Position numbers and translations under genes: made by a program
Part shown: piece by piece, positions 1,416 to 6,958 of the stretch
Layout: each line of letters starts with the position of its first letter
Numbering within the stretch: position 1 is the first letter of the stretch
Origin: Variovorax sp. PAMC 28711
Lineage (GTDB): Bacteria; Pseudomonadota; Gammaproteobacteria; Burkholderiales; Burkholderiaceae_C
Length of the DNA: 64,000 bases
NCBI RefSeq assembly: GCF_001577265.1
Contig: NZ_CP014517.1
Coordinates: 3,446,501 to 3,510,500, forward strand
Reading direction: 5' to 3'
Notes under the pieces: model-generated
Seen by the model: the letters and a program-made list of their open reading frames with translations, nothing else
The model's database searches: none
What the model was told of the DNA's origin: nothing

Positions 1416-1442
1416 TTCAGTTTGCCGTCATGTTGCCGATAT
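1416..1442 (+). promoter_or_regulatory. Candidate sigma-28 (FliA) promoter upstream of the PYP/c-di-GMP genes
   Basis: The sequence TTCAGTTT (1416-1423), an 11-base spacer and GCCGATAT (1435-1442) match the flagellar sigma-28 consensus TAAAGTTT-N11-GCCGATAA at 6 of 8 and 7 of 8 positions with the exact spacer. Transcription would start near 1450, giving a leader of roughly 85 bases before the PYP start at 1536. No convincing sigma-70 promoter was seen in the same gap. This is a consensus match made by eye. It predicts co-expression with late flagellar and chemotaxis genes. Confidence 0.55.
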
Positions 1443-1535
1443 CAAGGCACATGTTTCACGCACGCGGAGATTGGTTCGCCGGTCAAAGTGACGCACCACC
1501 CGGCCACTCCGTTCTCGTTCCTTGAAAGATTCTCG

Positions 1536-1928
1536 ATGACCATCACAACCCGTGTCGACTTCTCGACAGACAATCTTTTGCAGGGCCTGGAAACGTGCAC
1601 GGATGCGCAACTGGATGAACTCGCATTCGGGGTGATCGGTTTCGGCGCAGACGGCATCGTTCGCCGTTACAACGCTTTTGAATCCAAAGCCGCCGCGCTC
1701 TCGCCGCAAAGGGTGCTCGGGCAGCCTTTGTTCACGTCTGTCGCACCTTGCATGAACAATTTCATGGTCGCCCAGCGCTTCGAAGATGCAGCCGAAGCCA
1801 AGCAGGCGCTCGATGAAAGCATCGACTACGTTCTCACCCTTCGCATGCGACCCGTCAAGGTTCGGTTGCGGCTACTGGCATCGCCCGGTGCCGCGCAGCG
1901 CTATGTGTTGGTGAAGCGTGCGGTCTGA
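1536..1928 (+). CDS. pyp: Photoactive yellow protein (PYP) homologue, blue-light PAS photoreceptor
   Basis: The 130-residue protein aligns end to end with the 125-residue Halorhodospira halophila PYP at a constant offset of three. Shared landmarks are LDELAFGVI (family LDGLAFGAI), RRYNAFE (family LQYNAAE), VAPC and the C-terminal VLVKRAV (family VFVKRV). The chromophore-attachment cysteine (family Cys69) is Cys72. The residues hydrogen-bonding the p-coumarate phenolate (Tyr42, Glu46) are Tyr45 and Glu49. Family Thr50 and Arg52 are replaced by Ala53 and Leu55, which should shift spectrum or photocycle speed. PYPs are soluble cytoplasmic blue-light receptors binding p-coumaric acid by thioester. 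The start at 1536 has GAAAG upstream and gives the family length. The gene is 12 bases before a diguanylate cyclase. No tyrosine ammonia-lyase or p-coumaroyl-CoA ligase lies in this window, so chromophore supply is unknown. Confidence 0.88.
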   Translation: MTITTRVDFSTDNLLQGLETCTDAQLDELAFGVIGFGADGIVRRYNAFESKAAALSPQRVLGQPLFTSVAPCMNNFMVAQRFEDAAEAKQALDESIDYVLTLRMRPVKVRLRLLASPGAAQRYVLVKRAV

Positions 1929-1940
1929 ACGGTCGATGCC

Positions 1941-3299
1941 ATGGACGATTCCCTCGAGGAAGACTACGAAGCGCTGACACAGTTTTTGTACATCGCGCCC
2001 ATCGGGCTGATCCAGGCAGGCCTCGACGGCGAGATCGCGATGGTCAATCCGGTGTGTGCGCAGTTGCTGATGCCACTGTCGCGAGACGGCCAGTTGACCA
2101 ATCTTTTCACTGCACTGGAAGGCGTGGCACCCGACCTGCGGCACATGGTCCAGGCTTTTGCGGCCGGTCATGGCATGGTGTGCGACGCACTTCACCTGCA
2201 GGTCAACGCGGGGCTGACTGGCCGCAAGGATCCGCAGATTCTGTCCTTGAGCTTGCTCAAGCTGGATGACCACCGACTGATGGCCGTGCTGAGCGATGTC
2301 ACCAAGTCTGTGAAACGCGATCGGGAGTTGCGACAGAGTTCGGCATGGATCAACACCATCGTCACGGGTCTGACTGATTACGCGCTCGTGGCACTGGACT
2401 CAAGAGGATGTGTGCTGAACTGGAATCCCAGCATCGGGCGTGTCGCCGGATTTGAGAGCCAGGACACGGTTGGGCACTCGTACGCGATGTTCTATCCATC
2501 GGACGGAATGTCAGATGATCGCGCCATGGACCGCCTGCACGAAGCCGACGACAGCGGCTGGAGTCTGGACGAGGGATGGCGAATCCGCTCGGACGGCACG
2601 CGCTACTGGGGCAGCTGTCTTATCGCGCCGATGGGTGCAATCGGTGACGACGTGAAGCTGGAGCGCCTGGAGCGACGGGCCTACAGCCTGATCATTCGTG
2701 ACATCTCCGATCGACGCGAAGCGACCGAGGCGCTGCGGCAATCCGTGTCAAGCGACTACCTCACCGGACTGGCCAACCGCCGGACCTTCTTCGAGGCGGC
2801 GAACCTCGAGTTGCAACGCTGGTCGCGGATGCCACGGCCGCTGTCAGCGGTGATGATCGATGCCGACCATTTCAAGAAGATCAACGATGTCTACGGGCAT
2901 GCCTCGGGTGATGCCGTGCTGCGGCACCTGGCGGCCGGCATGTCTTTCACCTTCCACGCCATGGACATCGTCGCGCGGCTGGGGGGAGAAGAATTTGTCG
3001 TGCTGATGCCCGGCATCACGCTTGAAGCAGCCCAGGCCATTGCGCTTCGACTGTGCCGAAGCATCGAAGCGCAGTCGGTCGATGTGGATGGGACGTTGAT
3101 TCGCTACACGATCAGCGCCGGGGTGGCCACCATGGAGGAGGACATTGACGGCGTGGACGAACTGCTGCATCGCGCCGACCAGGCCATGTACTCAGCGAAA
3201 TTAAAAGGCCGCAATCGCGTCGAGCCCTGGGTCCGCCCGCAGGCGAAAAGTAGCCTTGAACGTCCGAGCGGCGATGCCATTGTTCTGCGCGATGACTGA
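1941..3299 (+). CDS. Diguanylate cyclase with two N-terminal PAS-type sensor domains
   Basis: The 452-residue cytoplasmic protein has three parts. An N-terminal PAS-like domain (about residues 1-120) carries the sequence FLYIAPIGLIQAGLDGEI. A second PAS domain follows (about 130-260), reading TDYALVALDSRGCVLNWNPS. A C-terminal GGDEF domain (about 270-430) has SSDYLTGLANRR and an intact GGEEF active site at residues 348-352, so it should make c-di-GMP from GTP. The inhibitory-site RxxD is not present; HAMD occupies that position, so product inhibition through the I-site is unlikely. There is no membrane segment. The gene follows pyp by 12 bases, and its stop overlaps the next start region. The N-terminal domain is paralogous to that of the next gene. 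The arrangement suggests that a light-driven signal from PYP sets c-di-GMP level, which is inference. Confidence 0.9.
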   Translation: MDDSLEEDYEALTQFLYIAPIGLIQAGLDGEIAMVNPVCAQLLMPLSRDGQLTNLFTALEGVAPDLRHMVQAFAAGHGMVCDALHLQVNAGLTGRKDPQILSLSLLKLDDHRLMAVLSDVTKSVKRDRELRQSSAWINTIVTGLTDYALVALDSRGCVLNWNPSIGRVAGFESQDTVGHSYAMFYPSDGMSDDRAMDRLHEADDSGWSLDEGWRIRSDGTRYWGSCLIAPMGAIGDDVKLERLERRAYSLIIRDISDRREATEALRQSVSSDYLTGLANRRTFFEAANLELQRWSRMPRPLSAVMIDADHFKKINDVYGHASGDAVLRHLAAGMSFTFHAMDIVARLGGEEFVVLMPGITLEAAQAIALRLCRSIEAQSVDVDGTLIRYTISAGVATMEEDIDGVDELLHRADQAMYSAKLKGRNRVEPWVRPQAKSSLERPSGDAIVLRDD

Positions 3300-5042
3300 A
3301 GTTCCTGGCGACGAAGCGCTTGTCCAGTTTCTGTATCGCGCACCCATCGGTCTGATCCAGACAACATCCGACGGCACGATCATCCTGATCAATCCGATGG
3401 CCGCGCAATTGCTCATGCCGTTGGCGCCCGGCGGCACGATGGTGAATCTTTTCGAAGTGCTGAAAGCCGTGGCGCCCGGATTGCGTGATCTGGCGAGCGC
3501 CAGAAGTCTGCCGGGCGATCTTGTCTGTGAGGCGTTGCCCCTGTTACTGCCGCACCTTGGATCCGGACACGGCGCAACGCAGGTACTGGGACTGCACATG
3601 ACAAGGATGGACGACAGCACGTTGATGGCTTGCCTGAGCGACCTGACAGTGGCCGCACAGCGCGAACACCAGCGACTCGAAGCAACGCTTCATGGTCAGA
3701 AGCGCATCGATGCGTTGACCTCGCTGCCCAACAGGATGGCTGTGCTCGAGCGAATTCAGCGACTGCTGGCCCGGAGACAGGACGAGCCTGGCTTGCAATT
3801 TGGTGTTCTGCTGGTCAATGCCGACCGCTTTGAGCGCATCAACGTCACCCTCGGTCACGCAGCCGGCGACGAGGTTCTGCGGCTGATGGGAAGTCGTGTG
3901 GCTTCCGCAGCCTGGACGATGGGGAGGGCAGCAGCGCCAGGGAATCCGCCGCCATGGCAGCACGGCTCGGCGCCGACGAATTCGTGCTGTGTTTCGATGC
4001 GCTGGAAAGTCATGCGCTTGACGCGTCCGTCATCACGGACAGGTTGCTCAGCGCCTTGAACAAGCCATTCAGCATCGGCGATCAGACCGTGTATCTCCTG
4101 TCGAGCGCAGGCCTTGTCACCGCCTCAAACGCTTTCGACGATGCTGAATCCGTGCTGGAACATGCAAGTCTGGCCATGCGCGAGGCCAAACGCGCAGGCG
4201 GTGCTCGCCATGTGCTCTATGAACCGGTGATGATGGACCGTGCCAAACAGCGCGGGGATCTGGAATCCGATCTGCGCATCGCGCTCGCCGAAGGGCAGCT
4301 CTTCACGGTGTACCAGCCGATCGTGGACCTCGCGGATGGCTCCGTCGCTGGCATGGAGGCGCTGGTTCGGTGGCGACATCCGGAACGCGGAACGGTCATG
4401 CCGGCCGAATTCATTGCGGTCGCGGAAGCCACGGGGCTCATACGCGAACTGGGTGACTGGGTTCTCAATGAGACCTGCCGGCAGCTTGTGTCGTGGCAGA
4501 TGTTGCTGGGAGACCGCTCGCCGAGGACGGTATCGGTCAATCTCTCGCGTGCACAGCTTGCCGATCCAGGGATTGTCGGTCGCGTTGCCGACGCGCTCAG
4601 TGCAACCCGGCTGCTTCCGGTCTGCCTGCAGCTCGAGGTCACCGAAAGTCTGGCGGCGCAGGACGCCGAGGTTCAGGCCCGCTTGAAGGACCTCAAGCAG
4701 CTTGGCCTGACACTGGCGCTGGACGACTTCGGCACCGGCTACTCGTCGTTGGCGAGTCTGCACGACTTGCCCATTGATGTCGTGAAGATCGACCGTTCAT
4801 TCGTCTGCCCGGTGGAGACGAGCGCACATCATCGCGTCCTGATCGAATCGGTGGTGCGTGTGGCGCGCAGTCTGGGCATGAGCACGGTGGCGGAGGGCAT
4901 TGAAACGGCATGCGAGGCGGCCCTGTTGGGCGCGCTGGGCTGCAGCAAGGGGCAGGGCTACTTTTATTCCACACCGTTGCCTGCAGAGGAGGCGACAGCA
5001 TGGCTTTGCGCTTACCGGTCGCCTTCGGTGGTCCTGAAGTGA
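3292..5042 (+). pseudogene. PAS-GGDEF-EAL c-di-GMP phosphodiesterase, interrupted by a frameshift near 3905
   Basis: The first part (from ATG 3292, overlapping the upstream stop) encodes a PAS-like domain (QFLYRAPIGLIQTTSDGTI) closely similar to that of the preceding cyclase, then the first half of a GGDEF domain. Reading then jumps from frame 1 to frame 0 near 3904-3906. Inserting one base there yields a continuous protein running RSLDDGEGSSARES to ARLGADEF and then an EAL domain. The GGDEF motif is degenerate (GADEF), so cyclase activity is unlikely. The EAL domain looks catalytically complete: EAL at 4356-4364, then SVNLS, LEVTES, LDDFGTGYSS, VKIDRSF, AEGIET and GQGYFYS. As drawn, an internal ATG at 3954 could still yield a free EAL protein. 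The cause may be a real mutation, a sequencing error or programmed frameshifting. An intact protein would hydrolyse c-di-GMP, opposing its neighbour. Confidence 0.75.
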
Positions 5043-6139: not shown

Positions 6140-6472
6140 CTACCACTGGCCGGATCCGATGCAGGTCATGATCTCGATGCCGCTGAACCAGTACCAGGGC
6201 TGTTCGTCGGCGCAGCTGAGCGCCATCGATGCCACGGTGCGGGTCTCCGTGTCGGCGGCACGATTGCCCAGCGGCTGGAGAACTTGCAGGAAATCGTCTG
6301 CACGCGTCCTGACCCCGGGCGTCTCGAATGCAAGGGTCGCCGCGCCCACGTCGGGACCGTTCGGCATGTTCGCCGGTGGGTGGGCCGCGCTCGCGGCGCC
6401 ACCGAATGCGAGGACCGAGGCGGCAACCGCGACCGATGCTGCGCGACGCAGATCCATTGGCTTGAATGTCAT
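6140..6472 (-). CDS. Small secreted protein with WYWFSGIE...TCIGSGQW C-terminus (paralogue B)
   Basis: The 110-residue protein has an N-terminal signal peptide (basic start, then VAVAASVLAFGGAASA with an AxA-type cleavage site), so it should be exported. The mature part is short, has no recognised domain and ends with a compact block WYWFSGIEIMTCIGSGQW containing one cysteine and several aromatic residues. The start at 6472 has a strong AGGGGAG ribosome site just upstream; the longer open frame was rejected because it crosses the neighbouring paralogue in another frame. It lies 14 bases after a shorter paralogue on the same strand, with the C-terminal block conserved at both protein and DNA level. 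The function is unknown to me. Confidence 0.65.
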   Translation of the reverse strand: MTFKPMDLRRAASVAVAASVLAFGGAASAAHPPANMPNGPDVGAATLAFETPGVRTRADDFLQVLQPLGNRAADTETRTVASMALSCADEQPWYWFSGIEIMTCIGSGQW

Positions 6473-6486
6473 ATCGCTCCCCTTGT

Positions 6487-6738
6487 TTACCACTGGCCCG
6501 AGGCGATGCAGGTCGCCATTTCGATGCCGCTCATCCAGTACCACGGGTCGTTGCAACTGGTGGCCCATGCCACGGTGCTGCTGGCGGGCGCCTCTGTTGC
6601 GACGGCCGCTGCGCGAGGGCTCGCCGACACCGTCGGCGGTGTGAGGGCTGCGCTGGCGGCGCTGCCGAGCGTGAGGGCGGATGCGGCCGCTGCGGCCAGT
6701 GCGAAGTGGCGCAGCGAATTCATTGGCGTGAGTTTCAT
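6487..6738 (-). CDS. Small secreted protein with WYWMSGIE...TCIASGQW C-terminus (paralogue A)
   Basis: The 83-residue protein starts with a signal peptide (LAAAAASALTLGSAASA, with an AxA cleavage site). After a short low-complexity Ala/Thr/Pro stretch it ends with WYWMSGIEMATCIASGQW. This block is nearly identical to the C-terminus of the adjacent downstream gene, so the two are a tandem duplication. DNA around 6139-6200 and 6486-6549 is visibly similar. The single cysteine in TCI could pair between molecules. The upstream ribosome site is weak (GAAAG). No domain is recognised. The exact aromatic ending right before the stop suggests the C-terminus is the functional part, which is inference. 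Confidence 0.62.
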   Translation of the reverse strand: MKLTPMNSLRHFALAAAAASALTLGSAASAALTPPTVSASPRAAAVATEAPASSTVAWATSCNDPWYWMSGIEMATCIASGQW

Positions 6739-6958
6739 ATCGACTTTCGGTAGAAGCAGTGGTCAGAAAGCGTGCGGCCGACCGTTGGAATCGATGCGGT
6801 ACGCACTGCGGATGCGTTGGCCGTTTTGGCTGCCAACGGCGCGATGGTCGGCCGGTGCGTGCCTGCCAGGAAGTGCCTAAAGTCATCGGTCGAACAGCGT
6901 GCGATTTGCATGACTTACGGCACTTCACACCGGGGCGCCGACGGATAACATCTCACGC

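Follow-up and report, generated by a model that had tools for sequence, protein, structure and literature searches.

A PAS-fold domain that accompanies clade C-type photoactive yellow proteins: a candidate partner carried by cyclic di-GMP enzymes and histidine kinases

Introduction

Photoactive yellow protein (PYP) is among the best-studied photoreceptors. Yet passages in papers of 2022 and 2026 speak of the Halorhodospira protein's partner as never identified or as unidentified, and a 2025 abstract describes the PYP signalling chain as an important gap. Here we consider a PYP gene and the two genes behind it in a stretch of 64,000 nucleotides from Variovorax sp. PAMC 28711 (contig NZ_CP014517.1, positions 3,446,501 to 3,510,500; hereafter the window, in whose numbering coordinates are given). 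We concentrate on a domain shared by the two downstream proteins.

The closest described systems are the clade C PYPs treated by Xing et al. 2022 (PMC9664959) and Dohmen et al. 2025 (PMC12826048). As set out in the sections consulted, these are likewise single-domain PYPs of Burkholderiales, with the conserved Tyr/Glu/Cys and Met100 and with GGDEF and EAL genes downstream, as here. Clade C PYPs of this order often adjoin such genes, 29 of 113 predicted pyp operons encode GGDEF/EAL proteins, and the interpretation of these PYPs in terms of cyclic di-GMP (c-di-GMP) is already in print (PMC9664959, PMC12826048). The same sections record histidine kinases near some PYPs and make no mention of a common N-terminal domain in the downstream proteins. 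In Idiomarina loihiensis a single-domain PYP has been proposed, according to the relevant part of PMC9664959, to act on an adjacent GGDEF cyclase in biofilm formation, but that PYP belongs to clade A whereas the one in the window is of clade C type. Ppd and Ppr (PYP-phytochrome-GGDEF/EAL or -histidine kinase) are alike in joining a PYP input to a c-di-GMP or kinase output, as the consulted part of PMC12826048 describes them; there, however, PYP and a phytochrome are parts of one fusion protein, whereas here the PYP is separate and the shared domain is part of the output protein. Finally, the title of a listed reference names a PYP-binding protein of Rhodobacter capsulatus, a partner of free PYP.

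Since the link between PYP, GGDEF and EAL has been published, the cassette in the window is a further example of a known arrangement. A preliminary reading of the stretch from its letters and open reading frames (ORFs), here called the sequence-only reading, had described it as an unusually clear signalling cassette, which is fair as a description although the arrangement is not new. What is new is the shared domain and its exchange between outputs, of neither of which a prior description was found in literature searches and in term searches of two papers, supplements and subscription papers not being covered.

A domain common to the two downstream proteins

The PYP gene (1536-1928, plus strand, as are all features of the unit) is followed after 12 bases by gene 2 (1941-3299, 452 aa), which itself overlaps gene 3 (approximately 3292-5042) by 8 bases. 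Both downstream genes begin with a region of about 118 residues, 49% identical between the two, that the sequence-only reading missed. We coin the label NT for this domain, which spans 1959-2312 in gene 2 and 3313-3651 in gene 3. In gene 2 it is followed by a second, ordinary PAS domain (Pfam PAS_9; 2388-2711) and a GGDEF domain (2751-3218), and in gene 3 by a degenerate GGDEF domain (GADEF) and an EAL domain (see below).

The NT domain matches no Pfam family in the window, and among 38 NT domains PF00989 and PF08448 match one member each at E<=0.001. An AlphaFold model of NT, made from 38 rows, shows PAS topology with a predicted local distance difference test (pLDDT) of 88.5 and a predicted template modelling score (pTM) of 0.78. 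A Foldseek search with the model produced 15 PDB matches at E<=0.001, which we take, in part from their titles, to be PAS proteins. By its modelled fold, therefore, NT appears to belong to the PAS superfamily, although no Pfam PAS family recognises it in the window. When solved structures were searched with the NT sequence, one match at chance level (E 0.72) emerged. Profile comparison of PYP with NT likewise found no significant relation (probability 0.2), so that descent of NT as a copy of PYP is not apparent from sequence.

Association of NT with PYP

The best 80 of 255 PYP relatives found in a search of genome contigs were retained. An NT-bearing gene lies directly 3' of PYP in 79 of these loci; in the eightieth (L080) the contig stops 152 bases past PYP. 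The commonest order is PYP, NT-PAS-GGDEF, NT-GGDEF-EAL, and some relatives have just a single enzyme gene next to PYP. The sequence-only reading had proposed a comparison of gene order and had counted a lack of conservation in relatives as grounds for dropping its case; among these best 80 of 255 loci the order of PYP, GGDEF and EAL is strongly conserved. One cassette of Burkholderiales type (L075) occurs in a metagenome-assembled genome labelled Gemmatimonadaceae, reflecting either transfer or mis-binning.

As the 80 loci had been chosen by PYP, whole genomes were searched by NT too. Among 399 genomes drawn from the order, NT was found in 11, and PYP matches of at least 141 bits were found in the same 11. 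A draw from the family gave NT in 28 of 349 genomes and PYP matches of at least 106 bits in the same 28, while in a class-wide draw NT was present in the window's own genome only (1/369). These limits between strong and weak PYP matches were set post hoc at gaps in the scores, from 141 to 74 bits in the order draw and from 106 to 79 in the family draw. About 10-13 candidates per genome were scored, and a rerun on one family with all candidates scored gave the same result in 12/12 genomes. The order and family draws have a single positive genome in common, that of the window, leaving 38 distinct positive genomes, in each of which an NT gene immediately follows PYP at one locus or more. The overlap expected on shuffling is close to nil (hypergeometric 1e-21 for the order, 6e-42 for the family), but neither value should be read as the probability of independent gain, since the positives fall in 5 and 17 genera, respectively.

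Weak PYP matches generally go without NT. In the order draw, genome G125 has PYP-like matches of 45-57 bits only and no NT match. In the family draw, G840 and G1041 have a single PYP match each (54-55 bits), again with no NT match. Second PYP matches below 80 bits in genomes with a strong match as well (G380, G860, G881, G903, G980, G1045 and G1111) have no NT match adjoining them in the match lists, the locus itself having been inspected for G380 (L119). The exception is contig G164:C110, where a PYP match truncated at the end of the contig (52 bits) adjoins an NT match of 74 bits. Three of the PYP-like ORFs of G125 are adjacent to each other, without NT (L117, L121, L122).

Exchange of outputs behind NT

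Beside PYP, NT is seen ahead of PAS-GGDEF and ahead of GGDEF-EAL, and a range of further architectures carries it. NT-GGDEF-EAL-GGDEF proteins are encoded beside PYP at L023, L027, L028, L054 and L056; L028, the only one of the type run against Pfam, has a PAS domain between EAL and the last GGDEF. NT-PAS proteins without GGDEF occur at L010 and L017, a fusion NT-PAS-NT-GGDEF-EAL at L041 and, in the window's own genus, PYP is followed at L213 by a tandem NT-NT-GGDEF-EAL. Histidine kinases also bear the domain. NT-HisKA-HATPase proteins are encoded directly after PYP at L124 and L125 and one gene further on at L026 and L058. The protein at L205 is an NT-PAS-kinase, and L204 and L209 each encode a hybrid kinase that includes a receiver domain, all three carrying other PAS domains besides NT, while at L210 a HisKA_3 kinase has NT at its C-terminus. 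At L053 an ordinary PAS domain replaces NT in the GGDEF-EAL gene, gene 2 there retaining NT. Because it stays with PYP across different outputs, even at the opposite end of the protein, NT has the look to be expected of a PYP contact domain. At a further locus (L199, genome G958) PYP is preceded by a histidine kinase gene and followed by NT, all on the same strand.

We consider it fairly probable that, in three-gene units of this clade C type, free PYPs signal through the NT domains of the proteins encoded behind them. A PAS-to-PAS contact between PYP and NT would be altered when PYP is lit, and the changed contact would in turn alter the activity of whichever output NT carries. Here gene 2 would supply a diguanylate cyclase as one output and gene 3, in the majority of relatives where its frame is unbroken, a c-di-GMP phosphodiesterase as the other, and light would thereby shift c-di-GMP. 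The suggestion of the sequence-only reading that light acting on PYP sets c-di-GMP synthesis against breakdown finds partial support. The proposal is built on the observed genes, domains, gene order, co-occurrence of NT with PYP and exchange of outputs, together with the modelled fold class of NT; from these we infer the contact, the direction of its effect, the loading of the chromophore and the biological response. Because NT keeps to clade C PYP in 38 genomes of the sample, and does so with outputs of unrelated kinds, it is a concrete candidate partner domain. If the proposal is correct, single-domain clade C PYPs would gain a defined partner; natural kinase and cyclase versions of NT exist, and the domain could provide a modular blue-light switch made of two proteins.

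Evidence bearing on PYP-NT contact

Several results weigh against signalling from PYP through NT. AlphaFold modelling of PYP joined to NT, for which the input was PYP read through its own stop into NT, produced two good folds with no confident arrangement between them (pTM 0.56), in what was, with 36 rows, a weak test. Co-divergence was assessed by comparing distance matrices of PYP and six other domains over 55 loci. The matrices correlate for all domains, with r 0.73 (partial -0.06) for NT of gene 2 and r 0.76 (partial 0.13) for NT of gene 3, the highest value being that for gene 2's second PAS domain (r 0.82, partial 0.39). Co-divergence was accordingly set aside as a pointer to NT, which it does not single out among the domains. 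Two NT-PAS-GGDEF genes were found without PYP, at G164:C41 (79 bits) in a stretch of 12 kb and at G1056:C146 (42-43 bits) in one of 8 kb; at another NT match, G1056:C482, the contig begins about 100 bases before NT, so that the upstream gene is not visible. The co-occurrence of NT and PYP over the 5 genera of the order draw and the 17 of the family draw is, moreover, not phylogenetically independent. To these may be added the frameshift in gene 3 of the window and the chromophore enzymes missing from its genome (see below). With AlphaFold, co-divergence and profile comparison all non-supportive, the case for PYP-NT contact is drawn from genomic association by itself.

This raises the question of whether NT is instead an independent PAS input, sensing a ligand or redox state, with PYP contacting another part of the output protein, such as the second PAS, or another protein altogether. 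The lack of a confident modelled interface, the strongest co-divergence being with the second PAS, and the pair of NT genes seen with no PYP in the examined stretch would all agree with that. Set against them are the presence of at least one NT gene directly 3' of PYP in every one of the 38 NT genomes and the fact that the second PAS known from gene 2 is missing from the GGDEF-EAL proteins and from the kinases of L026, L058, L124 and L125, all of which have NT. Other PAS domains do occur in the kinases of L204, L205 and L209. We regard an independent NT as quite unlikely, and signalling through NT as the better account of the locus.

The photoactive yellow protein

The sequence-only reading placed the start of the PYP gene at 1416, which is too early: the ATG at 1536 is at or near the start of most of 31 aligned relatives. 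Its recognition of a PYP homologue with Tyr45, Glu49 and Cys72 holds for the 130-residue product of 1536-1928, these residues corresponding to Tyr42, Glu46 and Cys69 of the Halorhodospira (Hhal) protein. The best solved relative is 1mzu (E 2.2e-16), with further matches to the Halorhodospira-type structures 1otd (2.1e-15) and 1kou (2.8e-14), and TIGR02373 matches at E 4.9e-23 over model positions 2-124 of 124. The values for 1mzu and TIGR02373 exclude a chance match, and homology across the whole domain places the protein among the photoactive yellow proteins. It is the sole TIGR02373 match at E<=0.001 in its own 4.3-Mb genome, and its Tyr45, Glu49 and Cys72 are invariant among relatives' PYPs (80/80 loci). 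It reaches 81.6 of the 143.05 bits of the TIGR02373 equivalog cut-off, and about 20% of PYPs fall within the reach of that model (PMC9664959).

Clade C is marked, in that paper, by loss of Phe92, Phe96 and Trp119 with retention of Met100, in Hhal numbering (PMC9664959). The window PYP shows these marks, having Ile96, Leu100, Tyr123 and Met104 at the positions concerned, as read off an alignment with solved PYPs; the assignment is one by these residues. To judge from its sequence, the PYP here would be a free single-domain blue-light receptor, provided that it carries p-coumarate.

Chromophore supply

Genes for a chromophore ligase were sought with a homologue resembling TIGR02372 (4-coumarate-CoA ligase). 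Among the 80 loci, 33 have a gene of this type in flanking sequence of at most 10 kb, a point in favour of the proposed light-sensing unit, as is the invariance of the chromophore residues; it lies beside the clade C PYP in 28 and beside a second, diverged PYP in 5, by coordinates read by eye; two of the 33 scored 302 and 325 bits against TIGR02372, below its cut-off of 334.7. The second diverged PYP and its coumarate-CoA-ligase-like gene are close to the clade C cassette at L011, L024, L055, L063 and L069. The genomes of the other 43 relatives have the ligase elsewhere in 9 cases (296-354 bits). In the available sequence of the remaining 34, hence in 34 of 76 relatives' genomes, no PYP-type ligase was found; some of these are metagenome-assembled, and named isolates are included. 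Nor do Tyr45, Glu49 and Cys72 vary in the 38 loci for which no ligase was found, one of which (L074) shares a ligase-bearing genome.

In the window's own genome the best match to a PYP-type coumarate-CoA ligase scores 93 bits, and is an AMP-binding/FabA-like protein in a gene cluster (annotation by eye), so that this genome joins the 34 in which no ligase of known type was found. Nor was a tyrosine ammonia lyase found there: the sole aromatic-lyase match is HutH-like and sits among genes recognisable by eye as hut genes. A search of the genome for p-hydroxycinnamoyl-CoA hydratase/lyase gave 18 matches, none over the cut-off, and 30 AMP-binding matches exceed theirs.

It may be that the PYP of this genome is without p-coumarate and works as a PAS protein with some other load or no chromophore at all, and that the unit is not light-sensing here. 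The single, HutH-like ammonia lyase and the 93-bit ligase match favour this, as do the 34 of 76 relatives' genomes likewise without that ligase and the shortfall against TIGR02373. We nevertheless think it unlikely, in view of the invariance of Tyr45, Glu49 and Cys72 even where no ligase was found; a stand-in ligase could, besides, be among the 30 AMP-binding proteins, and the TIGR02373 score loses force given the small share of PYPs that the model covers.

The cluster that holds the 93-bit match (L243, about 3.9826-3.9937 Mb in the genome) has genes for carrier proteins, a reductase, a ketosynthase, a LolA-like protein and an RND-type exporter, and we take it, from annotation by eye, to be aryl-polyene-like. 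The gene list in PMC8253772 served as comparison for this naming. The aryl-polyene pathway starts from 4-hydroxybenzoyl-acyl carrier protein. A single extension cycle would then yield the p-coumaroyl form of the carrier protein. A strong homologue of the aryl-polyene ligase (at least 300 bits, a threshold set after the list had been seen) is present in 9 of the 34 ligase-less genomes versus none of 16 tested among the 33 with a flank ligase (Fisher p 0.043), a contrast confounded by taxonomy. As a general stand-in for the PYP-type ligase this enzyme was rejected and remains an idea only: with 25 of the 34 genomes left over, too few have it for the aryl-polyene route to explain the gap. A wider proposal, in which NT is a dedicated PYP-receiving adaptor for cyclases, phosphodiesterases and kinases, and ligase-less genomes may draw a p-coumaroyl thioester from, for example, the first aryl-polyene cycle, is offered tentatively, with a little less than an even chance of being right.

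The enzyme pair and the frameshift in gene 3

The sequence-only reading had a GGEEF cyclase gene begin 12 bases past the PYP stop, and this is borne out: the GGDEF domain of gene 2 scores 145.6 bits with Pfam and has the GGEEF motif, making the product a predicted diguanylate cyclase. The inhibitory RxxD site, which a cyclase need not have, is absent from this protein, which reads HAMD, with His for Arg. Among 71 NT-PAS ORFs, including those of the window and of the fusion at L041, GG[DE]EF is present in 67, three of the others being without a GGDEF domain and one without the motif; 62 of those 67 retain the Arg of the R..D site.

The same reading had also predicted a separate EAL enzyme with catalytic motifs. 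An EAL domain (247 bits; 4269-4976) is indeed encoded in ORF 3954-5042, with its catalytic motifs, as judged by eye, but this ORF starts in the middle of a GGDEF domain and so is no separate gene. The first part of that domain (3706-3909) and the N-terminal region of gene 3 are in another frame (approximately 3292-3930), and the unbroken proteins of relatives align over both frames, placing the change of frame at about 3910-3955. Gene 3 of the window is thus a frameshifted NT-GGDEF-EAL gene, intact in most relatives (L003 and L004, for example); with its frame broken, it does not qualify as an intact EAL phosphodiesterase gene in spite of the 247 bits. Mutation and assembly error are alike possible as the cause. 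A codon-frame scan of the window for further frameshifts was discarded, since it mis-called known genes.

Among 66 NT-GGDEF-EAL ORFs, a set that leaves out the broken gene of the window, a loose EAL pattern is found in all 66, and 64 have DDFG[TA]G; the GGDEF motif is variable, reading GGDEF in 46. The retention of motifs in the NT-PAS and NT-GGDEF-EAL ORFs suggests that the usual pair behind PYP in relatives is a probable cyclase with a probable phosphodiesterase.

If the frameshift at 3910-3955 is real, the cassette may be decaying, and the unit a remnant with PYP and cyclase only. Its patchiness in the genus, where 2 of the 5 genomes listed have it, the window's own included, is in keeping with decay. 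PYP and gene 2, however, are intact, relatives exist with one enzyme gene only beside PYP, and a small assembly error is possible, which together make decay somewhat unlikely.

Downstream of the unit, on the minus strand at 6140-6928, are two adjacent small ORFs with signal-like N-termini and a common C-terminal pattern, PWYW.SGIE..TCI.SGQW.

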